Shown here: one piece after another, positions 2,032-29,001 of the stretch
How positions within the stretch are numbered: position 1 is the first letter of the stretch
Layout of the letters: each line of letters begins with the position of its first letter
Virus record (IMG/VR): IMGVR_UViG_3300044816_000087
Coordinates: 1 to 29,253 of that record
Source: a virus
DNA: 29,253 nt
Reading direction: 5' to 3' (one strand)
The notes under the pieces: model-generated
What the model was told of the DNA's origin: nothing
Seen by the model: the letters and a program-made list of their open reading frames with translations, nothing else
Databases searched by the model: none
Translations under genes and position numbers: made by a program

Positions 2032-3765
2032 TCAGATAATCTGCTGAACATCCACAGTTTCGTTACCCACATTCGCCGATGGCCAGCTCACGCAGATGAC
2101 GCCCGAATTGCTCGAGGCAATTGTGGCAGTTCCTCCGACTGCGTTGAATTCAGGCGTCAGGGTCAACACGCCATTCAGATTCGCAGCTCCTTGCACCAGC
2201 ACGTTTGATGTCAAAAAAGATTTGGCTGACCCCGAAAAGTCATTGTCCTTTTCGAGATTGATCGTCGTGCCCTTGCGGTAACTACTGCTGCCCCCGGTGT
2301 TCAGATTGAGCGAGACCGAGACTTGCCAGATGTTGCAGAACTGGTATGGAAACAAGACAAAGTGACTCGCTCCCGAGACTTGGATCGCCCCGAACCAGTC
2401 CGTACAGCGGCGAATGACCATGGGCACGGTCTGCTGTGCATTGCACAATGTTTGAACCTTGTCTCCAATGCAATCAAAGGCTCGAAAGGCCGATGTGGTC
2501 AGTGAACTGCTGATGACCACGAGGGCAAACGAGGCATTGTTGTTGTACCACTCGCAATCGCGCAATTCGAGAATAGTGGCCGTAGCATTGCCCGCCAGAA
2601 CACATGGAACCCCGTTACCCGGTAGGTTCTTGAAGGTCACGTTGTTCAGCGTCATCCGCTCATTCGCAATGCTGAAACCCAATGCGGTCGTAGACGGGTC
2701 CCACGCGCTGAAAGATCTCACCCCATCCACGATGCCATTGGAGAACTTCGACACGCATCCGGTTCCGGTACCGTTGGCGTAGAAGTATCCCGGTGAGTTG
2801 TTCACCCGGAAGTTTGAAACCTGAATGTCGCTGTTGGTTGACTGGTTCAGGATCGTGGGACTGGGCGAGGGAATCGTGCCGCCACCCGTCACGCCAAACT
2901 GGGTGTTGTAGATCCACTTGGCATCATTGATTTGCAAGCCGAATACAGTGGACCCAGTGCTCAATAGGATCGAATCGGCCTGGTTGAATTCAGAGTGAAA
3001 GCCATCGAACTGGATGTCTGTGCAAGTCGCCCCGAAGCTCACATCGAAGTGATTCAGGAAGTACAACGTGTTATGGATATGCACGTTGCCGGTGGCGCTG
3101 AAGTTAATGGCGATTTGCGCCTGCTCGATGATGACGTCGGAGCCAAGAATGTCGCCGCTGCCGTAAAAAGCCAGTCCGATTCCCGGTCCTGACATGAACA
3201 GATTGCTGAAATATCCGCCGGCCACCTGGTCAAAAACGATAGTCCCGTTGTTCGATCCGGAGGAAGGCCCTCCGAGGATGAACAGATCCGAGATGCTGAC
3301 CGGCTGCCCTCCTCCGTCTACTGTGGGGACGCCAGAGATCAACCCCCAGCCCATCTGAAAGGTGGGTACGGTCGCGCTGCTGTTGGCGATGATGTAGGTG
3401 GCGCAGAAGGCCCCGCGGAAGCGCTGTCCCTTGCGTATGAACACTCTACCGTTGATGAGGTAGGTGCCTGGAGGCACATAGATGTCTTGCAGCTGATTCG
3501 GCGGCGGCGTGGGCAGCGCTGTATAAGACGCCGTCGCGAAGGTAGCTTGGTTGAATGCGGGAGTAGAATCGATCTGGCCGGTCGGATCCGCTCCATAGCG
3601 CAACACATTACCGGACGGATAGCTGTAATTACTCGGCGTCACCGCGGCGGCAATCTCCTCAGCGGTCCGTGCATATGAATCGATCGTTGAAAAGAAGTCA
3701 GAGCCCGGATTCGGCCCTCCGCGCCGCTGATGAATCGCTTCCAGAATGTCGCGTACGACGGCCAT
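2032..3765 (-). CDS. Tailspike / depolymerase-type protein with pectate-lyase beta-helix
   Basis: This 577-residue virion protein is expected at the tail tip, binding and probably cleaving surface polysaccharide. After a short N-terminal adapter (about 1-50) comes a hallmark pectate lyase superfamily entry motif near residue 55 (VLRYGADPTGQIDSTPAF). It is followed by DIYVPPGTYLINGRVFIRKGQRFRG, the first coils of a right-handed beta-helix. The middle (about 110-420) is rich in Asn, Gly, Ser and Val, with repeated strand-turn patterns typical of parallel beta-helices. The last ~70 residues look like a beta-sandwich or trimerisation region. The gene follows a short tail-fibre-type gene and precedes the lysis genes. 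Catalytic residues cannot be assigned by eye. Confidence 0.85.
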   Translation of the reverse strand: MAVVRDILEAIHQRRGGPNPGSDFFSTIDSYARTAEEIAAAVTPSNYSYPSGNVLRYGADPTGQIDSTPAFNQATFATASYTALPTPPPNQLQDIYVPPGTYLINGRVFIRKGQRFRGAFCATYIIANSSATVPTFQMGWGLISGVPTVDGGGQPVSISDLFILGGPSSGSNNGTIVFDQVAGGYFSNLFMSGPGIGLAFYGSGDILGSDVIIEQAQIAINFSATGNVHIHNTLYFLNHFDVSFGATCTDIQFDGFHSEFNQADSILLSTGSTVFGLQINDAKWIYNTQFGVTGGGTIPSPSPTILNQSTNSDIQVSNFRVNNSPGYFYANGTGTGCVSKFSNGIVDGVRSFSAWDPSTTALGFSIANERMTLNNVTFKNLPGNGVPCVLAGNATATILELRDCEWYNNNASFALVVISSSLTTSAFRAFDCIGDKVQTLCNAQQTVPMVIRRCTDWFGAIQVSGASHFVLFPYQFCNIWQVSVSLNLNTGGSSSYRKGTTINLEKDNDFSGSAKSFLTSNVLVQGAANLNGVLTLTPEFNAVGGTATIASSNSGVICVSWPSANVGNETVDVQQII

Positions 3766-3768
3766 TGC

Positions 3769-4371
3769 TTATGAGAGCAAGTACGCCACAGTCACGGTGT
3801 TGCCAAAACCCTTATTCCCCGCGCCCGCCCAACCGCTCAATGATCCGGCTAGACCGAGTTGGATAGTTGTGCTCGCGATGATCAGAGCATAGGCGCCTGC
3901 AATATCCGCTCCGTTGTTTCTTGCTATCCCGAGGGGTACTACTTGAGCCAAACTAGTCGGCTGAATCGCGGCAGGCAGCCCCGTTATGCTGAAACTCGTA
4001 GAGTTACTAACCCCGAGATTCGCCCCAATGTTCAACAGGGCTAACTTGCCGATACGCGCCCATGTACAAGCGAAATTAGTGCCCGCAGTGAAGCCGACTC
4101 CCACTCCCGTGAATGTCCCATTGGCAATCGAATCGCCATTGAGTCCCGTCCAGCGGAACGAAGCGCTCCCCAGATTTAACGTATTGTCGACCGCGGGGAG
4201 GAAATCGGCCGTAGGCTTCCCTTGGCCGTCCCGCGTGACGCATAAACTGAGACCTGCGGCGTAGCCGTTCTCTTCAGTATCCATCCGGGATGCGGTAATG
4301 TTGATCCCGTTGATCTTGTCCTGGACCCAGTTAAAGACCCGGACGAAGTTGCCTGAACCGTCAAAGGCCAT
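3769..4371 (-). CDS. Short tail fibre / tailspike adaptor protein
   Basis: This 200-residue protein has an N-terminal motif common in podovirus fibre proteins. MAFDGSGNFVRVFNWVQDK is followed by NITASRMDTEENGYAAGLS, then a small beta-rich region with TADFLPAVDNTLNLGSASFRW, a pattern often found just before fibre shafts. The C-terminal half is small-residue rich (GTNFACTWARIGKLALLNIGANLG) and probably a beta-structured knob. It ends four bases before the tailspike start, so the pair is likely co-translated. It may be the particle-attachment platform or a second receptor-binding protein. The 74 bases upstream hold only its ribosome-binding site (GGGG) and no convincing promoter. Confidence 0.65.
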   Translation of the reverse strand: MAFDGSGNFVRVFNWVQDKINGINITASRMDTEENGYAAGLSLCVTRDGQGKPTADFLPAVDNTLNLGSASFRWTGLNGDSIANGTFTGVGVGFTAGTNFACTWARIGKLALLNIGANLGVSNSTSFSITGLPAAIQPTSLAQVVPLGIARNNGADIAGAYALIIASTTIQLGLAGSLSGWAGAGNKGFGNTVTVAYLLS

Positions 4372-4445
4372 GGGATAACCCCGTTATGTTTAATTTCATC
4401 CTATTCTGTGTCATCTGCTTTTTCTGCGAAGACTTCATCCGGGCG

Positions 4446-6209
4446 TTAGTTCGATGCATTAACGGCTCCCGCAACTGAAGTTGGGAATCGACGCTGTAAG
4501 GCTTGCGCAAGCTGAGAGGCCATTTGTGGGCGCGCACCTTCTTGCCCCATGCCGCTCAACAAATATGCGCGCGACCCGCCGCGTACGAAAGGCAATGCGG
4601 CTCCTACTGTGCCGCCCAATATTCCCCCATATTCATGACCTTCTTTCGCCAAGAGAGCGGCTGCGTACAGATTCAGATGACTGACATTGCTACTGTTGGC
4701 CTGTAGATTTGCTTTGGGGTAGTTCGCAGCATGTTCGGCTGCTGTGAGTAGATTCCCGGAGAGTGGCTCACCGCGGCGCAATGCCGCCGCGAGCTTTTGC
4801 CCGCTGACGTTGCCGTTGGGATCCATTGCCTCTTCGATGGTCGAAGCTTTTGCGTAGGTCTGGCGCCCTTTTTTCAAGGCTTCGATCAATCCCGAGTAGG
4901 TTCCGGGGGCTGCAGCTTGGGGCTGCTCTCCGAACGATTCGGCAGCGCGTTCTCCGAAAGCACCCAATTGCTGCGGAGGCCCGGACTGCTGCACGACAGT
5001 CCGCATCGTGGGACGCACTCCTGCATCAACATAACGTCCTTTCGTGGGGTCAAATTCTAATGCCAGTTTGGACTGTGTCGGCGGCACGACCTGGTTAATA
5101 AGTTGACGCGCTCCCACATCGCCCTGTTGGGCATAGTCCATGTTGAGTGCGAATTGCTGCGGATCGGGCGGCTTCTCCAAGCTCTGCGCGCCCCGCTCGG
5201 TCTGCCGTTCAATGGCGGCTGAGACACCTTTGTAGGCGGCGCCCAGTTCACTCTGGCCTTGGCGGTAGGCATCACTGGCCTTCTCGCGCAACAGTTTGAT
5301 GGCCGAGACCGCGGAATTTCCTGTGAAGGACGGTTGCCGATAGGTCTCGACGATCTTCTCGACATCGGGATTGGATGCGCCGGGGAAATCCGCATTGGCG
5401 CCCCGATTGGAGCTCAGCACGCTATCGAGGTCCTGCCCATATTGCGGATCAGCGGAAAATCGCGGGATGGAACGCGCAGCCTCAAATGCTTTGCCGGCTT
5501 CCGCCTTCACGGCGCCCACAGCATCAGGAGTCAAGGTTTCCGCAGTCAATCCTAGATCTTGCGCAGCTCCTGCATTGCGGGCCGTCTGATTGATCACCCT
5601 CGCCTGATTCTGTGTAGCTTCTTTGCCGCCGATCGTCTCCAGCGTCTTGTTGATCAGTGTTGGGTTTGTCGTGGAAGGTGGAACCACATAACCCTTGTCT
5701 TGAGCTTGTTTCAATCCGGCCGCCAATCGCTGCACCTGCAAGTCCTTGGGAGATACAAATTCCGCAGGCGCTTTCGCGCCCGGAACGGGAAAACTCGGCA
5801 CCATCGCACCGCCCTCAATACCCAGCCCAAAACTGGCGACCTTTTCCGCCGTTGTCTGGGGGGTAGGGAGCGCGCTAGCGAGTGCCCGATTCGCGTATGC
5901 CGATGGAGTATTGCTGGGCCATGCATCAGCCGAGAATGGATTGACTTCCGACCACTTCGGAATGTGCGGATTCTGTGCGAAGTTGTATGCAGCGGTCATG
6001 GCGTCTGGCACCATGTTGACTGCTCCCACGACTCCATGTGCCAAGGCATTCGCGGAGAGTCCCAGGCCACGACCAATCTGATGGCCGATGGTGCCGGGGC
6101 CTTGATCTGGAGGCGCATTCAATTGCGCCAGCAATGCGGGATCGCTCACCGGTTGTGGCGCCCCATTCAGCTGAGCCAACAGAGCCGGATCAGTGACCTC
6201 GTTGGCCAT
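4446..6209 (-). CDS. Large virion protein, probable ejection/internal protein (587 aa)
   Basis: This 587-residue soluble protein starts in a TAATG overlap with the upstream gene. It opens with two copies of DPALLAQLN (residues about 7-15 and 23-31). A hydrophobic, glycine-rich stretch follows (about 40-75, GRGLGLSANALAHGVVGAVN), then long Ala/Gln/Lys-rich helical segments and a Gly/Ala-rich C-terminus containing GGILGGTVGAALPFVRGG. Short-tailed phages usually encode ejection proteins between the nozzle and the spike; these enter the cell with DNA, are helix-rich and carry amphipathic or hydrophobic patches. That positional logic and composition support the call. No catalytic motif is seen. 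Confidence 0.6.
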   Translation of the reverse strand: MANEVTDPALLAQLNGAPQPVSDPALLAQLNAPPDQGPGTIGHQIGRGLGLSANALAHGVVGAVNMVPDAMTAAYNFAQNPHIPKWSEVNPFSADAWPSNTPSAYANRALASALPTPQTTAEKVASFGLGIEGGAMVPSFPVPGAKAPAEFVSPKDLQVQRLAAGLKQAQDKGYVVPPSTTNPTLINKTLETIGGKEATQNQARVINQTARNAGAAQDLGLTAETLTPDAVGAVKAEAGKAFEAARSIPRFSADPQYGQDLDSVLSSNRGANADFPGASNPDVEKIVETYRQPSFTGNSAVSAIKLLREKASDAYRQGQSELGAAYKGVSAAIERQTERGAQSLEKPPDPQQFALNMDYAQQGDVGARQLINQVVPPTQSKLALEFDPTKGRYVDAGVRPTMRTVVQQSGPPQQLGAFGERAAESFGEQPQAAAPGTYSGLIEALKKGRQTYAKASTIEEAMDPNGNVSGQKLAAALRRGEPLSGNLLTAAEHAANYPKANLQANSSNVSHLNLYAAALLAKEGHEYGGILGGTVGAALPFVRGGSRAYLLSGMGQEGARPQMASQLAQALQRRFPTSVAGAVNASN

Positions 6210-8078: not shown

Positions 8079-9334
8079 GAGATTGCTCCGTAATCGACCA
8101 TTTTGGGTCCGCCGCGGCCGCCCAGGCTGAAGACCGCTTCGGGTCTTTCTTTCTCAACATCCTGAGCCATGACGCCCATCTGGGTGCGCGAATCACCCTT
8201 GTATTTGTAGGTGTAGACCGGCAGCCCGTCATCGGTCTTACCCACTTTGCGGATGTCTTCTTTTAGTCGTCGATCAGAGAAGAACATCGCAGCCAACATT
8301 GCAGCGGATGCCAGCGAGCTCTCGGTCTGATTCTGGCTCGCCGCTTGCGCATTGGCTGAATTCACAGCGCCCTGATAGTTCTGGTTGAACGCGCCCGAGA
8401 TATCCGGCGTCTGCGCAGTGGCCTGTGCAGCTCCACCGTTGCCCGCCAGTGTTTCGTATTCGTTCAGCGGCGCGTTGCGCACGGTGATCTGGTTCTGCAA
8501 TCCCTGTGTACCCAGTCCAAACAATCGGGATTGTTCGGCGCCTGCACCCGTAATCGCCTGAGTCCGGGCATCGGAGGTCTGCGCTTGTTGCTGTCGTCCG
8601 ATGCGCGCCATCTCGTTGTTGTAGGCTGGCGAGCCGATGGTTGCGCCCATATTGGCCAACTGCGCCTGTTCCTGATCGGACTGCAGCTTTTGCTCAGGCT
8701 GCAAGTACTGCATCTGCTTCTTGTACAGCGCGTCCTGCGTGTTCTGCAGGTCCTGGGTCGTGGAAGGACCTCCGGGCATACCCGCCAGTCCGCTCGTGTC
8801 GATCGGCTTATTGAGGGCATCCTGGAACTGGGGGGCGAGGCTCGTATATTGGGTATAGGTCGGCGCACCTCCCGTGGGACTGGACATGTTGTTGCTGTAG
8901 TTCGTCGACGGCATGCCTTGAGTTCCGGTCGCTGACCCGGCTCCCAATCCATAGGGAATGCCGGAACTACCTCCGAAGGTCGAACCTGCGGGCACGCCCC
9001 CATACGTCATCCCCGGAGCGTGATTACCCGTATAGGCCGGCGGGGCATTCGTGACCCCAGCCCCGGGACCTGACGCGGACGGACCTATGAGTCCGCCGCT
9101 GACAGGCAGGCCCGAGCCGCCTTGACCGCCACCCGGGAACATCTGCGTCGACCCGGGGACTCCCGATCCCTGGCCTGGATAGGCTGCATTCCAGTAAGAA
9201 CCCCCCATGGGATTGACGTTGTTGGTCCGGTTCAGCCCTGCATTGAACTGTGCCGTCCCGGTGGACAATCCATACTGGGCCGCCGCCTGGGTATACGGAT
9301 CAACCGGCTGTGGCGTATTGGGAGAACTGCTCAT
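8075..9334 (-). CDS. Peptidase S74 (intramolecular chaperone) domain virion protein
   Basis: This 419-residue protein starts at ATG 9334 in an ATGA overlap with the acetyltransferase stop. About 330 residues are Gly/Pro/Ser/Asn/Gln-rich and low in complexity. The last ~65 residues contain the recognisable S74 signature SDRRLKEDIRKVGKTDDGLP, then VYTYKYKGDSRTQMGVMAQDVEKERPEAV. S74 domains form trimeric chaperones at the ends of tail fibres and spikes and usually self-cleave at a conserved Ser. Here the domain is short and stops soon after the AQDVE motif, unlike the usual 100 or more residues. The position among ejection-type genes, far from the spike, is also unusual. Confidence 0.8.
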   Translation of the reverse strand: MSSSPNTPQPVDPYTQAAAQYGLSTGTAQFNAGLNRTNNVNPMGGSYWNAAYPGQGSGVPGSTQMFPGGGQGGSGLPVSGGLIGPSASGPGAGVTNAPPAYTGNHAPGMTYGGVPAGSTFGGSSGIPYGLGAGSATGTQGMPSTNYSNNMSSPTGGAPTYTQYTSLAPQFQDALNKPIDTSGLAGMPGGPSTTQDLQNTQDALYKKQMQYLQPEQKLQSDQEQAQLANMGATIGSPAYNNEMARIGRQQQAQTSDARTQAITGAGAEQSRLFGLGTQGLQNQITVRNAPLNEYETLAGNGGAAQATAQTPDISGAFNQNYQGAVNSANAQAASQNQTESSLASAAMLAAMFFSDRRLKEDIRKVGKTDDGLPVYTYKYKGDSRTQMGVMAQDVEKERPEAVFSLGGRGGPKMVDYGAIS

Positions 9335-9750
9335 TTCATCACCCACCGTTTCCAAGCCGGTTCATCGACAAACATCCGATAGACCAACACATCATCATTC
9401 GCCAGCGCTCGAACCATGGTGGATTCCAGCGTAAACCCCAGATGTTCAACGAAGCGCTTCACGGACGTGTTCTTTGCAGGAATCAGCGCATTGAATCGCT
9501 GCACCTTCAACTGCATGAACGGATAAAGGAAAATCATCCGCAGAAAAGGACGGGTGAGCCAGCGCTTGCCTTCTACGGCTGCAATGTGGCCGCGCACGGA
9601 ACCGCCGGGCAGAAACTCGGTGAAGCCGAGTGCTGCAATCAATTCACCTTTTTCCTCGAGTCCGATCGCCACGTACTTCCCATCCCAGATATTGCCGTTG
9701 ATGGATCGGCTGGCCGCCCACTCGGCAACCCGCTGATCTTCGCCAAACAC
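9331..9750 (-). CDS. GNAT-family N-acetyltransferase-like protein in the virion operon
   Basis: This protein of about 139 residues probably starts at GTG 9750 (or TTG 9753), just after the nozzle gene's stop; the longer reading frame into that gene is likely spurious. The fold order fits GNAT: an N-terminal helix (EDQRVAEWAASR), strands around YVAIGLEEKGELIAALGFTEF, a strand with GHIAAVEGKRW, and a later NTSVKRFVEHLGFTLE segment. NTxxxxxxExxGF is the typical helix-strand that follows the acetyl-CoA site. Small GNAT proteins occur in short-tailed phage structural operons; their substrate is unknown. No classical Q/RxxGxG/A loop is evident. Confidence 0.6.
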   Translation of the reverse strand: MFGEDQRVAEWAASRSINGNIWDGKYVAIGLEEKGELIAALGFTEFLPGGSVRGHIAAVEGKRWLTRPFLRMIFLYPFMQLKVQRFNALIPAKNTSVKRFVEHLGFTLESTMVRALANDDVLVYRMFVDEPAWKRWVMK

Positions 9751-9757
9751 CAATCGT

Positions 9758-11575
9758 TTAGAGTGGGCCGCCCTCCTCGTAGAGGTAGTCGGTTGAGTAC
9801 CATTGAGCGATGACGCCTTTGACCTGCTGACTGATCCGACCACTTGCGGCATAACCCAACCCCACAACACCTTGCCAATTTTTGATACTGATGGACGGAG
9901 CAGAATCCCCCCACGGGGTGATATCCCACGGACTCGTATCCCAGGGAGCGAGCCCGCCTGAAATGAACGGCGGCGCCGGATTGATCACATCGTTGAAATC
10001 CACATTCAATGTGATGACCGGCGCAATGTTGGCGCTCGCCTGGAAGATCGGCCGCGCCATCATGAAATTCTTGAGCTTGCCCGGTAGATCGAAATAGGAG
10101 AACGCAGGCTTGCAATCCACCGTAATCGCGCTGCCGGCATCATTCGTGCCCGTGTCTGCCAGGAACACCTTGGTCGAGCCGCCGTAATACAAGGCGTCCT
10201 GTTGCAGTTCCCAACAGTTGGCGTTCCAGGCATCAAAGCGCCACCAGGACTTCGCAACCGAGTTCATCACCCACTGGTGCATGATCGTGTTGAGTTGATC
10301 CGGCACATTGATGATCAGCTTGTTTCCCAATGGGTAATCGATCACCTGCCAGCCGAAATTGGCATTGAAACTCTGCACGTCATTGTTGATCGCATTGGCG
10401 ATCTTGTCGGTGAGCTGCGCATCCGACTGAGTACGATCCGTCAGCATGGCCTTGGAAAGAGGCGTCGCGCCATCGGCCGTGATGACAATGATGTCTGCGG
10501 CGTACTTGGTATAACACCTACGTCCAATGGGACGTCCGATGTTGAATACGCCGACCAGCGACCATGTGGATACTTGCGCTGGATCGTATCCTTGGTAGAT
10601 CGCGACCTCGCCTTCCGTGGTGATGAAGACCGCATAGTCATCGATACCGGAGACATTATCGATGGTCCAGGTGGCCATCTGCATCAACGTGCCGCCCTTC
10701 TTGAAGATCTGGCCTAGCGGTAGTTGGGTCAACACGCCTTGAAAGCTCAAGATCCCGGCATACCAGACGTTCATCGAGTTGTTCTCGATGTACCACATGC
10801 GCTGCTTGAAGACAGTCGCGGTGATTAGGTTCGCCACCGTCAGTCCCACGCCTGAGATGACCATGACCGACCAACCGCCGACTTGAGTGACGGGAATCGA
10901 AAATCCCGCCCCGGATCCGCCGAGATTGGCATTGCTCGCTGACAGCACATCGCCCACCAGATAGCCACTGCCGGCCGTCGTGATGAGGACGGAGGTGACC
11001 ACACCGCCCGCCACTACGATGGTGGCTTTGGCGAGTGTGCCGGTACCCCCGGTCAACGGAACGGCGGTGTAGGTTCCCGGGGTGGCGTAACCAGCACCAG
11101 GAGTGATGGCCCCCAGTTGCACCAAGGCACCTTGAGTGCCGCCGTCATAGCGTTGTGGCGTAGTGGCGCCATTGACCCATACCAGAACGTTGCCGCCGCC
11201 GGCATTGAACATCTGGTGTTGCAAACGGGAATTACCCAGCGTCGTGACCAATGCGGCCCCGACTGCGCCCTGAGCTGTAATGTCATAGATCGAATTACCG
11301 CTGACGCCATAGAGCTTGCGAGAAGTGAGGCCGTTGTAGGCCATGACCGTCTCGACCGCTCCGGGGAGTCCTGACGCCCACACCACTTCCCCGCTTCTGA
11401 TCGCGACATAGGACGGCGTGCCGAACCAGTTGCTGGCCGTGATGGCATCCGTCGGCGCCATGGCCGCCAAGGCATCGCGCGCGTTGATCCCCCCGATCGG
11501 TGCAGGCACCGATACGGTTTGCGGATCCACATCCCGCTGTGGCTCCCGATGACGCAATGAGCGCCCGAAGCCCAT
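9758..11575 (-). CDS. Tail nozzle / stabilisation-type protein (about 605 aa)
   Basis: This protein is expected to form the lower part of the short tail, sealing the portal after packaging. The N-terminus contains PIGGINARDALAAM followed by ASNWFGTPSYVAIRSG, an opening I associate with podovirus nozzle-like proteins downstream of the adaptor. The body is rich in beta strands, with repeated sensor-like segments (YAVFITTEGEVAIYQGYDP, ADIIVITADGATPL) suggesting a propeller-like fold. An inserted Gly/Thr-rich repeat lies at about 175-240. Near the C-terminus PWDTSPWDITPWG forms a small Trp-rich repeat. ATG 11575 forms a TGATG overlap with the adaptor stop; a GTG three bases earlier is an alternative. 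Confidence 0.75.
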   Translation of the reverse strand: MGFGRSLRHREPQRDVDPQTVSVPAPIGGINARDALAAMAPTDAITASNWFGTPSYVAIRSGEVVWASGLPGAVETVMAYNGLTSRKLYGVSGNSIYDITAQGAVGAALVTTLGNSRLQHQMFNAGGGNVLVWVNGATTPQRYDGGTQGALVQLGAITPGAGYATPGTYTAVPLTGGTGTLAKATIVVAGGVVTSVLITTAGSGYLVGDVLSASNANLGGSGAGFSIPVTQVGGWSVMVISGVGLTVANLITATVFKQRMWYIENNSMNVWYAGILSFQGVLTQLPLGQIFKKGGTLMQMATWTIDNVSGIDDYAVFITTEGEVAIYQGYDPAQVSTWSLVGVFNIGRPIGRRCYTKYAADIIVITADGATPLSKAMLTDRTQSDAQLTDKIANAINNDVQSFNANFGWQVIDYPLGNKLIINVPDQLNTIMHQWVMNSVAKSWWRFDAWNANCWELQQDALYYGGSTKVFLADTGTNDAGSAITVDCKPAFSYFDLPGKLKNFMMARPIFQASANIAPVITLNVDFNDVINPAPPFISGGLAPWDTSPWDITPWGDSAPSISIKNWQGVVGLGYAASGRISQQVKGVIAQWYSTDYLYEEGGPL

Positions 11576-25819: not shown

Positions 25820-25944
25820 TAAGGCAGCAGCCAATGGATGGCAGCCACCCAGCCGACCAGCGCTGCGCTGAGCACGATCCGCCACATCCAGCAACTCGGC
25901 AGATCGCCGATTTGGCTCGACGACCAATGAGGGTCATTTTTCAT
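25819..25944 (-). CDS. 41-residue single-membrane-segment peptide
   Basis: This 41-residue frame starts at ATG 25944 in an ATGA overlap with the HNH/AP2 gene. Its TAG overlaps the replication initiator's GTG (TAGTG). The first half is polar (KNDPHWSSSQIGDLPS), and the second is one hydrophobic helix rich in Trp, Val, Leu and Ala (MWRIVLSAALVGWVAAIHW). It would sit in the inner membrane with a very short tail. Couplings on both sides strongly argue it is real although very short. The role is unknown; possible roles are a membrane anchor for replication or a superinfection or toxin-like peptide. Confidence 0.7.
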   Translation of the reverse strand: MKNDPHWSSSQIGDLPSCWMWRIVLSAALVGWVAAIHWLLP

Positions 25945-26441
25945 GACCGCACCACCGAGTTGGGCGCAGCAAAGGCACCGAAATACCTAAGCGCTGCCGC
26001 GTCGTAAGCAGCCACTGCGTCTTCAAGTCTGGTAAATCGTCCTAATCTCTTAGGATTCCCGCTTATTTGAGGCGTGATGGCCGCAGCCCATTTGTGTGCC
26101 TCGGCGTCCCATGTCACTCCCTTAAAACCTGAAGAACTACTGGTGCGACGTCGATTGCGAGAATTTTCTGACTGGGAGCAAACGCGCAAATTGCAGCGAC
26201 GATTGTCGAGCGTGTTCCCATTCGCGTGATCTACGACTTGAGCAGGCAGAGCCCCGAGAAGGAATCGATGCAGTTTGATGCTGTAGCGACTTCCATCTTC
26301 CCGATAGATGACACGGATGGCATAGCAGTGAGCGCCGTCATTATTGGTTCTGGTATGCCACTTCCACTGGGCCAAATATTCGTAGTCAGCCTCATCAACG
26401 AGACAGGAGAGTCCGCGCCGGCCCAAAGAGAACGCCCTCAT
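25941..26441 (-). CDS. HNH endonuclease with AP2 DNA-binding domain
   Basis: From ATG 26441 this is about 166 residues. It begins MRAFSLGRRGLSCLVDEADY then LAQWKWH, the usual opening of phage HNH-AP2 proteins. The HNH part follows (RFLLGALPAQVVDHANGNTL, then DNRRCNLRVCSQSENSRNR), with His, Asn and Arg where expected. The C-terminal AP2 domain spans SGFKGVTWDAEAHKWAAAI to RFTRLEDAVAAYDAAALRYFG. It is probably a free-standing homing-type endonuclease. A TTG at 26498 preceded by GAGAGGGG could extend it 19 residues. It is the first gene of the leftward unit. Confidence 0.85.
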   Translation of the reverse strand: MRAFSLGRRGLSCLVDEADYEYLAQWKWHTRTNNDGAHCYAIRVIYREDGSRYSIKLHRFLLGALPAQVVDHANGNTLDNRRCNLRVCSQSENSRNRRRTSSSSGFKGVTWDAEAHKWAAAITPQISGNPKRLGRFTRLEDAVAAYDAAALRYFGAFAAPNSVVRS

Positions 26442-26571
26442 GGCTGATGACCCGACCAGTGGTAGGTGCGGTTGTGGCGCATCAAAGCGCCCCGCCAAGG
26501 CGCCCGCCCCTCTCGCGATACACTGGCAAGGGTTTCGCTAACTCCCCAGCTCTCACGAGAGGAACGGACAT

Positions 26572-26915: not shown

Positions 26916-27131
26916 TCAACTGACTGCGACTCGCCGAGCTTGCCGCTTGGACTGCTCGCGGAAATAACCAGCGAGTTTTTCAATGTGACTGACGCCCGGG
27001 TCGGCAATCTCTCCGCTAGCGATCTTCTGAATCGTGCGGTTCGACATTCCAGTTGCCTCGGCAATCATCGGCCAAGTGCCCTTGGCTTCATGTAGTTGCG
27101 CGATGACGAAAGCGTGTAACGATTGTTCCAT
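26916..27131 (-). CDS. Cro/CI-type helix-turn-helix regulator (71 aa)
   Basis: This is a 71-residue protein from ATG 27131. The XRE-type HTH is seen at about residues 20-50 (TWPMIAEATGMSNRTIQKIA followed by SGEIADPGVSHIEKLAGYF). The C-terminus is basic (REQSKRQARR). It is divergently transcribed from the other regulator, and a perfect TACCCA-N4-TGGGTA operator lies 15 bases upstream of its start. It may therefore control itself and the rightward genes. It lacks the C-terminal dimer/protease domain of a full CI and is closer to Cro in size. Confidence 0.8.
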   Translation of the reverse strand: MEQSLHAFVIAQLHEAKGTWPMIAEATGMSNRTIQKIASGEIADPGVSHIEKLAGYFREQSKRQARRVAVS

Positions 27132-27145
27132 AACGCCAGATGCTA

Positions 27146-27161
27146 TACCCAACGTTGGGTA
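27146..27161. promoter_or_regulatory. Operator 1 (TACCCA-N4-TGGGTA, perfect palindrome)
   Basis: TACCCAACGTTGGGTA is a perfect 16-bp palindrome (18 bp counting the flanking A/T at 27145-27162) between the two divergent regulators. The same half-sites recur at 27519 and 27540. This is the strongest copy and is the probable binding site for one or both regulators. Confidence 0.75.
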
Positions 27162-27166
27162 TTTTC

Positions 27167-27182
27167 TACCCAGCTATGAACA
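27167..27182. promoter_or_regulatory. Degenerate operator half-site
   Basis: TACCCA-GCTA-TGAACA keeps the left half-site and only part of the right. It lies six bases after operator 1, giving the usual paired arrangement. It could be a weak cooperative site. Confidence 0.4.
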
Positions 27183-27207
27183 AAACCGCCTCCTATTCTC
27201 GGCGGCT

Positions 27208-27513
27208 ATGGCAAAAAAGGAAGGCAAGCGAGGGAAGCGACCGCCGACTATCGCGGCTGTGCGGCTGCGGCGCCTGTTGGCTTCAAACCTGCGCGCACTA
27301 ATCGATCGGAGCTATCCGCTGGCGCGCTACCCAGGAAAATCAGAGCAGGAAAAAGCATTTGCCAAAGATGCTGGCGTTTCCTGGTCCACCGTCCAGCGCG
27401 CGCTCGACCCCGAGAATGGGAAGACCATCGATATCTTGGCCGACTTGGCGTCGGGCCTCGATATTCCACCGGTGGAGCGTTTTGTTTTGCATTGCGAGAC
27501 TATCATCTCGTGA
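27208..27513 (+). CDS. Helix-turn-helix regulator of the rightward unit (101 aa)
   Basis: This is a 101-residue protein from ATG 27208. A basic N-terminus (MAKKEGKRGKRPP) precedes an XRE-like HTH (KAFAKDAGVSWSTVQRALDP). The C-terminus (KTIDILADLASGLDIPPVER) matches the family's closing helix. Operators lie on both sides: one pair before it and one pair after its stop across a promoter. A short stem (CCGCC/GGCGG, 27186-27205) ends just before the ATG and could hide the ribosome site. Whether it or the 71-aa protein acts as repressor cannot be told; it has no LexA-like protease domain. Confidence 0.8.
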   Translation: MAKKEGKRGKRPPTIAAVRLRRLLASNLRALIDRSYPLARYPGKSEQEKAFAKDAGVSWSTVQRALDPENGKTIDILADLASGLDIPPVERFVLHCETIIS

Positions 27514-27518
27514 TGAGA

Positions 27519-27534
27519 TACCCAACTTTGGGTT
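27519..27534. promoter_or_regulatory. Operator 2 (TACCCA-N4-TGGGTT)
   Basis: This copy differs from the consensus by one base. Its right half-site overlaps the first bases of the TTGACA -35 box. A bound repressor would block polymerase at the rightward promoter. Confidence 0.7.
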
Positions 27535-27561
27535 GACAGTACCCAGTTGTGGGTATATCGT
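27533..27561 (+). promoter_or_regulatory. Rightward early promoter
   Basis: A perfect -35 TTGACA (27533-27538) is followed after 17 bases by TATCGT (27556-27561); an overlapping TATATC at 27554 is an alternative with a shorter spacer. The first downstream gene starts at 27596. Operators 2 and 3 cover the -35 and the spacer, as in lambda-type PR promoters. Confidence 0.65.
27540..27555. promoter_or_regulatory. Operator 3 (TACCCA-N4-TGGGTA) inside the promoter
   Basis: TACCCAGTTGTGGGTA has perfect half-sites. It occupies the spacer between the -35 and -10 boxes, the strongest position for repression. Confidence 0.75.
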
Positions 27562-27595: not shown

Positions 27596-27883
27596 ATGAC
27601 AACCGCCCAGCAGAACCCCGACCTGATCGCCCGCCTCAAGGCCGCACAGAACTCGCTGCACCGCCCGGTTGACATCGTCACCTTCGGCTATCTGGCCTCC
27701 AGCCGAGCCGAACTCGAGCGCCATGTGCAGTACTACGAGGATGCCGTGGCGAATCAACCCGCCCCTCGCAAGCCAAAGGCTGCATCCAACTCCAAGGCCC
27801 TCGCCGAGTTCGCCCGGATCATGGCGCAGGCCCAAGCCTCGCACGCCGCTGAGCTCGCACGCGCCGAGTGGGAGCGCCTGTGA
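27596..27883 (+). CDS. First early protein behind the repressible promoter (95 aa)
   Basis: This is a 95-residue protein from ATG 27596, with GGGAG upstream. The sequence is charged and helical at both ends (NPDLIARLKAAQNSL; ALAEFARIMAQAQASHAAEL), with a Pro/Lys/Ala linker (ANQPAPRKPKAAS). It has no membrane segment or known motif. It is first in the rightward unit, where phages place host-takeover or switch-control proteins. Its stop overlaps the next GTG. Family unknown. Confidence 0.7.
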   Translation: MTTAQQNPDLIARLKAAQNSLHRPVDIVTFGYLASSRAELERHVQYYEDAVANQPAPRKPKAASNSKALAEFARIMAQAQASHAAELARAEWERL

Positions 27884-28074: not shown

Positions 28075-28206
28075 ATGACCACCCCCGGCACGAGACAAAA
28101 GGTTGCGCAGCTCATCTTCGCGTACGTCAACGCGCCCCTGCGTCCCATCGAGCCGATGGCCTCCCCTATGCAGACGGGTTGGTCGCTCAAACGTCAGGCC
28201 AGTTAA
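28075..28206 (+). CDS. 43-residue early peptide of unknown function
   Basis: This 43-residue frame runs from ATG 28075, with AGGGAAAG upstream, to TAA 28204-28206. It has basic and Pro-rich segments (TRQKVAQLIFAYVNAPLRPI) and a short basic tail. The TAA abuts the Shine-Dalgarno of the csrA-like gene, so translation may influence the next gene. It has no recognisable motif. Confidence 0.5.
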   Translation: MTTPGTRQKVAQLIFAYVNAPLRPIEPMASPMQTGWSLKRQAS

Positions 28207-28217
28207 GGAGAACAACG

Positions 28218-28394
28218 ATGTTGGTTCTGGGAGTCAAGATCGACGAATCCATCATGGTCGGCAACGATGTTGAGATCTTCGTTCTCAGCAATCGCCACGG
28301 TCAGATTCGCTTAGGCATCAAAGCGCCGCGAGAGATCGCTGTGCATCGCAAGACGATTTGGAAGCGAATCCAGGCTGAAAAGGCTGCGTCATGA
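28218..28394 (+). CDS. csrA: CsrA/RsmA-family RNA-binding regulator
   Basis: This 58-residue protein has an AAGGAG ribosome site seven bases before ATG 28218. It matches the CsrA pattern along its length: MLVLGVKIDESIMVGNDVEI, then GQIRLGIKAPREIAVHR and RIQAEK. Arg44 of the AVHR motif, a main RNA contact in CsrA, is present. The N-terminal RNA-binding segment differs: E. coli residues 5-7 are TRR, here GVK. CsrA homodimers bind GGA in mRNA leaders and block or stabilise translation. The phage could use it to alter host metabolism, biofilm or lysogeny, or its own mRNAs. Its stop overlaps the next ATG (ATGA). Confidence 0.93.
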   Translation: MLVLGVKIDESIMVGNDVEIFVLSNRHGQIRLGIKAPREIAVHRKTIWKRIQAEKAAS

Positions 28395-28699
28395 GCGACT
28401 CAACACCTCTGAATCGCAAGCACAAACTCGCCATCTATAAGCGCACCGGTGAGATTTCCTTCACCACGGTATGTGATGCGTCCTTCGATGAGATGCAGGA
28501 CTACGTCCGGTTGACAGAACACATCGAGGTTGAATTCCCGCCACTGCAGGACGATGCAATCATCCAGAAGCATCTGGATGCATTGGATCGTACCGAAGCT
28601 GCGATCACTGCGAAATACTTCCAGGCGCTGGCTGACATCAAACAGCAGAAGGAAGAACTTCGCGCGATCACCTACCAGCCGACTGAGATCGCGTCATGA
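28391..28699 (+). CDS. Early protein with C-terminal coiled coil (102 aa)
   Basis: This is a 102-residue protein starting in an ATGA overlap with csrA and ending in an ATGA overlap with the next gene. The first half is mixed (LNRKHKLAIYKRTGEISFTT). The second half is a long charged helix (DALDRTEAAITAKYFQALAD, KQQKEELRAI). It has no catalytic or membrane features. Coupling to csrA suggests co-expression and perhaps a shared role, but no family is recognised. Confidence 0.65.
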   Translation: MSDSTPLNRKHKLAIYKRTGEISFTTVCDASFDEMQDYVRLTEHIEVEFPPLQDDAIIQKHLDALDRTEAAITAKYFQALADIKQQKEELRAITYQPTEIAS

Positions 28700-29001
28700 C
28701 TCTCCACAAGGTCCGCTACAACTCTGCCTCCTGTGCGCTGATCACGCCGCACGCCCCCGCATTTCGGGCAGGCCAGTTCAGTCTGCGCCGCCAACAGAAC
28801 ATGAACTGGGCGCGCAAGCTCAAAGCGGAGGATAAAGACAATCGACTGCAAATCTCGCTGTTTGCGGACTTCGCCCGCGATGATCACCACCGCTATCTGA
28901 ACTGCCTGCACGAGATTCGCAAAGCACAGATTCTCGCCGAGCGCATGAAGAACTATGAATTCACAGTTATGGATCGCGTCATGGGAGTGTTGCACCGATG
29001 A
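28696..29001 (+). CDS. Early protein of unknown function (101 aa)
   Basis: This is a 101-residue protein with ATGA overlaps at both ends. It is basic and helical (AGQFSLRRQQNMNWARKLKA, EIRKAQILAERMKNYEF). The centre contains RLQISLFADFARDDHHR, which may be strand-turn. There is no signal or membrane segment. It is likely a DNA- or protein-binding early factor, but the family is unknown. Confidence 0.65.
   Translation: MTLHKVRYNSASCALITPHAPAFRAGQFSLRRQQNMNWARKLKAEDKDNRLQISLFADFARDDHHRYLNCLHEIRKAQILAERMKNYEFTVMDRVMGVLHR

Follow-up and report, generated by a model that had tools for sequence, protein, structure and literature searches.

A phage-borne CsrA homologue with both partners of the R6-E46 salt bridge replaced and its RNA-contact residues kept

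The window analysed here, by which we mean the whole stretch of 29,253 bases, is a virus record that encodes a large terminase, a portal protein and a major capsid protein. A short csrA-like gene lies in it within a run of plus-strand open reading frames (ORFs), downstream of two divergent small regulator genes, and the features of this region are as follows.

26916-27152, minus strand: small HTH_3 regulator, phrog_9425 (transcriptional repressor)
27146-27161, unstranded: operator TACCCAACGTTGGGTA, between the divergent regulator genes
27208-27513, plus strand: putative phage repressor, phrog_3949, a weak match (E 7e-6)
27519-27534, unstranded: operator TACCCAACTTTGGGTT, abutting the -35 box
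27533-27561, plus strand: sigma-70-like promoter TTGACA-17-TATCGT, 10 of 12 positions as in the sigma-70 consensus
27540-27555, unstranded: operator TACCCAGTTGTGGGTA, in the promoter spacer
27596-27883, plus strand: first ORF of the putative early operon, 95 aa
27881-28029, plus strand: small ORF, overlapping the ORF before it by GTGA
28075-28206, plus strand: small ORF, 43 aa, 11 nt upstream of csrA
28205-28210, plus strand: Shine-Dalgarno sequence AAGGAG of csrA, which matches ANGGA
28218-28394, plus strand: csrA-like gene, 58 aa, T5G/R6V/E46T variant (from translation, profile matches and alignment)
28391-28394, plus strand: ATGA stop-start overlap of csrA and the next ORF
28391-28699, plus strand: ORF downstream of csrA, 102 aa, weak phrog_2479 match
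28696-29001, plus strand: next ORF, 101 aa, likewise ATGA-coupled

From the promoter onward, three small ORFs, csrA and two further ORFs follow one another with short gaps or overlaps, the csrA start lies about 650 nt downstream of the promoter, and terminator prediction across this run of ORFs found none. The operator motif TACCCA-N4-TGGGTA occurs at three sites (27146, 27519 and 27540), a number reached in 0 of 100 shuffled sequences. The sequence-only reading had placed csrA in an early operon under a repressible promoter, and given the promoter and the three operators this is plausible. It had also described the gene as embedded by stop-start overlap, which is so on the downstream side, at the ATGA, but not on the upstream side, where there is a gap of 11 nt; the AAGGAG spans this gap and the stop codon of the preceding ORF. 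A similar order of genes is seen in Pseudomonas phage F116, where a CI-like repressor, a divergent gene and three small ORFs precede csrA, and in Providencia phage PSTCR8lys, in which csrA lies a few genes downstream of cI. Viral contigs searched with the two ORFs downstream of csrA gave no relatives of either, and the idea of an early operon common to other phages was therefore dropped.

Two further features of this part of the window are recorded in their own right. The three operators at 27146-27555 form a putative switch common to two divergent small regulators, whose matches to phage repressors are weak or partial. An HNH_3 endonuclease gene of the homing-endonuclease type with an AP2-like domain (25941-26498, minus strand) separates the regulators from the replication gene.

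The csrA ORF is intact, and its translation is MLVLGVKIDESIMVGNDVEIFVLSNRHGQIRLGIKAPREIAVHRKTIWKRIQAEKAAS, followed by the stop codon. It scores 72.4 bits against Pfam PF02599 (cut-off 27), matches PHROG 9500 'CsrA-like regulator' (phrog_9500, E 9e-21), passes the NCBIfam equivalog NF002469 (76.2, cut-off 73) and narrowly misses NCBIfam TIGR00202 (69.9, cut-off 70.1). Because the PF02599 score is above the curated cut-off, the ORF is by sequence a member of the CsrA family, and with TerL, portal and capsid genes in the same window it is one carried on a phage genome. Both of the critical RNA-binding residues R44 and L4 are present, residues that occur in 100% and 97%, respectively, of the sequences sampled.

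To place the individual residues we sampled 196 distinct CsrAs other than the window protein, 128 of them viral and 68 cellular, from all retrieved loci, part of which had been picked by a C-terminal pattern only, leaving the N-terminus free of selection. The cellular sequences came from whole Planctomycetota and Bacillota genomes and single genomes of other groups, the chromosomal CsrA of Pseudomonadota being represented directly by E. coli and otherwise through the papers cited; they thus belong mainly to two phyla and were ranked by similarity to the query, a bias that should, if anything, favour V6 or T46. Residue 6 is nevertheless arginine in all 196 of these proteins and residue 46 glutamate in 194, so that 194 of the 196 have both members of the R6-E46 salt-bridge pair, whereas the window protein has V6 and T46 and thus neither. 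This pair is near-universal, yet it lies outside the PF02599 profile definition. The two proteins lacking E46, from Escherichia phages Pondi and PTXU04, keep R6.

These two Xuquatrovirus proteins (L054, 1965-2165; L064, 965-1165) also have an N-terminal extension, MAKG, and a G33R change, and in PTXU04 csrA directly follows annotated endolysin and holin genes.

Other positions differ in how unusual they are. T5, found in 95% of one alignment of mostly phage sequences, is glycine in the window protein, a rare change that occurs elsewhere, and H27 is a further rare change, replacing a glycine present in 93% of a mostly phage alignment. K7 is frequent, being found in 19% of the sample and also in RsmE, and D9 is rare among the mostly phage sequences and common in the Bacillota and Planctomycetota copies. 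The sequence-only reading had given residues 5-7 as GVK with R44 kept, and the translation bears out both. Its emphasis on GVK in place of TRR is apt for T5G and R6V, but K7 is ordinary and E46T had been overlooked. It had further proposed an altered RNA-binding strand, and residues 5 and 6 do change within beta-1, but the published RNA-contact set (L2, L4, K7, Q29, R31, H43 and R44) is wholly kept, as is the hydrophobic core. Judged by these alignments, the change falls mainly on the R6-E46 bridge pair and T5, and not mainly on RNA-contact residues.

A frameshift was rejected as the source of GVK, given that K7-I8-D9-E10-S11 match proteins of the TRKIDES type exactly, which leaves two in-frame codons as the difference. 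An assembly error is likewise unlikely on this single viral contig, for which there are no reads, because the frame runs unbroken through the replaced codons and about 120 nt separate R6V from E46T.

The protein stands apart from the sequences available. Its highest identity to any sampled CsrA is 57%, and to any annotated phage CsrA below 60%. Protein searches for close orthologues gave only three viral matches, at most 51% identical over full length and with a contig-end fragment 70% identical over 20 aa, and seven cellular matches, none above 50%. A wider GVK clade was discarded as a candidate, the pattern MLxLGVKI having matched 61 viral contigs and no CsrA among them; a longer pattern had no match in genome contigs. 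Phylogenetic origin was likewise set aside, since a tree of 57 columns did not resolve it; a quick tree groups the window protein, without support, among mostly cellular sequences of Bacillota, Planctomycetota and Chloroflexota.

Published structures and mutants indicate what these replacements might mean. The hot and warm spots of RNA binding in RsmE are L2, L4, R31, R44, K7, Q29 and H43 (PMC6191724), and GGA is recognised mostly through the backbone (PMC3791407, PMC6692469), while the side chain of T5 touches the C-G pair that closes the stem (PMC3791407, PMC4005645); with G5 in the window protein, that side-chain contact is predicted to be lost. In RsmE-RNA structures Arg6 of subunit A lies beside Glu46 of subunit B, near the RNA (PMC4005645), and a passage of PMC6692469 that cites Heeb 2006 and Schubert 2007 holds this salt bridge to be indispensable for RsmE structure and activity. 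In the CsrA of C. jejuni, R6A and E46A rank with the most severe loss-of-function changes, each strongly impairing regulation, and R6A also impairs the E. coli protein (PMC6692469).

Given these effects, the double change in the window protein may simply weaken it, and the main rival to a functional reading, a serious one although we consider it somewhat unlikely, is that this is a relaxed or decaying copy that, its bridge lost, would be unstable or bind RNA poorly and be carried as a passenger of the early region on its way to being lost. The loss of two near-invariant residues and T5 is what such a copy might show. An AlphaFold2 monomer (pLDDT 77, pTM 0.51) has only CsrA, RsmA and RsmE chains as its top PDB matches, at a TM of about 0.63 for the monomer rather than the dimer, and its residues 1-10 have a mean pLDDT of 62 against 80 for a canonical phage CsrA modelled from the same set of sequences; a less confidently modelled N-terminal strand is consistent with decay without being decisive. 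A decaying gene would not, however, be expected to have kept an intact frame, a good ribosome site, translational coupling, the hydrophobic core and every direct RNA-contact residue, and random decay would not be expected to strike both partners of one interaction. Because two linked replacements fall at two otherwise near-invariant sites, co-evolution would fit the joint change of R6 and E46 more easily than independent hits, insofar as one sequence can indicate this.

Carriage of the gene among related phages also bears on decay. The contigs whose capsid protein is closest to that of the window (94-95% identity) are 39-40 kb long; the window therefore probably represents only part of a genome and breaks off within the early operon. 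Of eight larger relatives (35-40 kb), picked by their capsid protein, only one (G011) has csrA, and that copy has the canonical TRR. The gene is thus optional cargo among these related phages, and its lack in most near relatives is a further point in favour of decay. The capsid relatives are metagenome phages with distant matches to Mx8 and to Bradyrhizobium and Stenotrophomonas phages, and a host assignment from them was abandoned for that reason. The phage may be temperate, to judge by its operators and repressors and by a relative (G007) that has a tyrosine integrase (88 bits); a search of the window for an integrase found none.

Several observations on these genomes are unconnected with csrA. 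In L006, a close relative, the large-terminase gene is split (2821-4980), with residues 1-442 encoded at 2821-4110 and residues 444-488 at 4846-4980, an interruption of about 735 bp near the 3' end that an intron or the insertion of a homing endonuclease could explain. In L029 the major capsid gene (114-1060) is seemingly broken at position 617 (residues 1-168 and 183-333), possibly by a frameshift or an assembly fault. Among the structural genes of the window itself lies an Acyl-CoA N-acyltransferase-like gene (9331-9870, minus strand; phrog_4470, moron/host takeover).

The sequence-only reading had also suggested that the protein might antagonise host CsrA through mixed dimers. Plasmid RsmQ heterodimerises with host RsmA and RsmE (PMC9928087), a precedent for a dominant-negative antagonist that lowers host CsrA activity in this manner. 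With R6 and E46 both replaced, however, mixed dimers should be less favoured rather than more, because R6 or E46 would stand unpaired at each interface, and there is no obvious reason why a mixed dimer with intact RNA-binding residues should lack activity; we therefore regard this as highly improbable.

It is also conceivable that the protein acts mainly on the phage's own mRNAs, in early-to-late timing or autoregulation. Its co-expression with the early genes, as the putative operon implies, would suit such a role, as would the presence of ANGGA in 11 of 35 phage leaders, that of csrA included, but ANGGA overlaps ordinary Shine-Dalgarno sequences. The csrA leader has a stem GUU-AAGGAG-AAC, but hexaloops of this kind are just as common in control genes (8 of 98 csrA leaders, 11 of 132 control leaders), and the fold of this leader is nothing special (z = 0.44); autoregulation by a GGA hairpin at the csrA start was rejected on these figures. 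No z-score beyond -1.6 was found for the other early-operon leaders that were folded, and an Rfam search of the window for a sponge RNA of the CsrB/RsmY type gave no match of any kind. This last result also speaks against a role confined mainly to phage mRNAs, a reading that we hold to be rather improbable.

The reading that we prefer, at a probability of about one half, is that the gene encodes a working GGA-binding translational regulator of the phage, made early and with a remodelled dimer interface. The protein would be made from the operator-controlled promoter and would assume the CsrA dimer fold, with V6 and T46 in place of the R6-E46 pair remodelling the junction of beta-1 and helix between the subunits. 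From this replacement it would follow that homodimers are probably preferred over mixed dimers with host CsrA. With the T5 side chain gone, binding to ANGGA hairpins would depend less on the closing base pair, and the protein, once on GGA-type mRNA sites, would shift translation in the infected or lysogenised cell. The family match, the intact frame, the kept RNA contacts, the position in the operon and the joint loss of R6 and E46 are all consistent with this proposal. Apart from the possible weakening of the protein, what weighs against it is that it concerns a single sequence with no close relatives, that model confidence for the N-terminal strand is below that of the control, that the one csrA among the larger capsid relatives is TRR, and that there is no CsrA-site signal at the gene's own start. 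A stronger version of the proposal, in which the V6-T46 swap insulates the homodimers from host CsrA so that GGA sites are read free of host control, for example by requiring a different stem or by evading the sponge RNAs of the host, appears doubtful to us.

Phage-borne CsrA is already known. Our searches matched csrA in 85 phage records (E up to 0.01), 247 plasmids and at least 471 viral contigs, Sobrero and Valverde found 30 csrA-bearing phages among 2517 (PMC7366521), and Campa et al. reported many phage csrA genes in GenBank and IMG/VR and suggested that these act on host physiology and against CRISPR-Cas (PMC8450108); a functional study of a phage-encoded CsrA was not found in the open literature searched. 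What appears to be new here is the replacement of both R6-E46 partners with the RNA-contact residues kept, which makes the window protein a natural experiment on a residue pair regarded as indispensable. Should the protein have kept RNA binding, the bridge is dispensable or exchangeable, and its replacement would offer a route to insulation from host CsrA; should it have lost RNA binding, it is a natural inactive or interfering form.

The protein resembles the CsrA/RsmA/RsmE family (PF02599) in length, predicted fold class, RNA-contact spots, R44, L4, AP motif and hydrophobic core, and differs from it in T5G, R6V, E46T and G27H and in an identity of at most 57%. With the phage CsrA/RsmA proteins (the F116 RsmM type, those of Vibrio and Burkholderia phages; PHROG 9500) it shares a short csrA gene and, in the case of F116 and PSTCR8lys, an early region near a CI-type repressor, but those examined all keep R6, keep E46 outside Xuquatrovirus, and are mostly TRR, whereas the window protein is V6/T46. 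Plasmid RsmQ of pQBR103, a GGA-binding protein that reprograms the behaviour of its host and forms dimers with the host's Rsm proteins (PMC9928087), is likewise a CsrA homologue on a mobile element presumed to retarget host translation; its binding, proteome effect and heterodimers are experimental, whereas the window protein is known from its sequence alone. RsmN/RsmF of Pseudomonas aeruginosa offers a parallel for a changed dimer architecture combined with a conserved RNA face, but there the change is an inserted helix and a rearranged fold, whereas the window protein differs by point changes only, at one interface pair.
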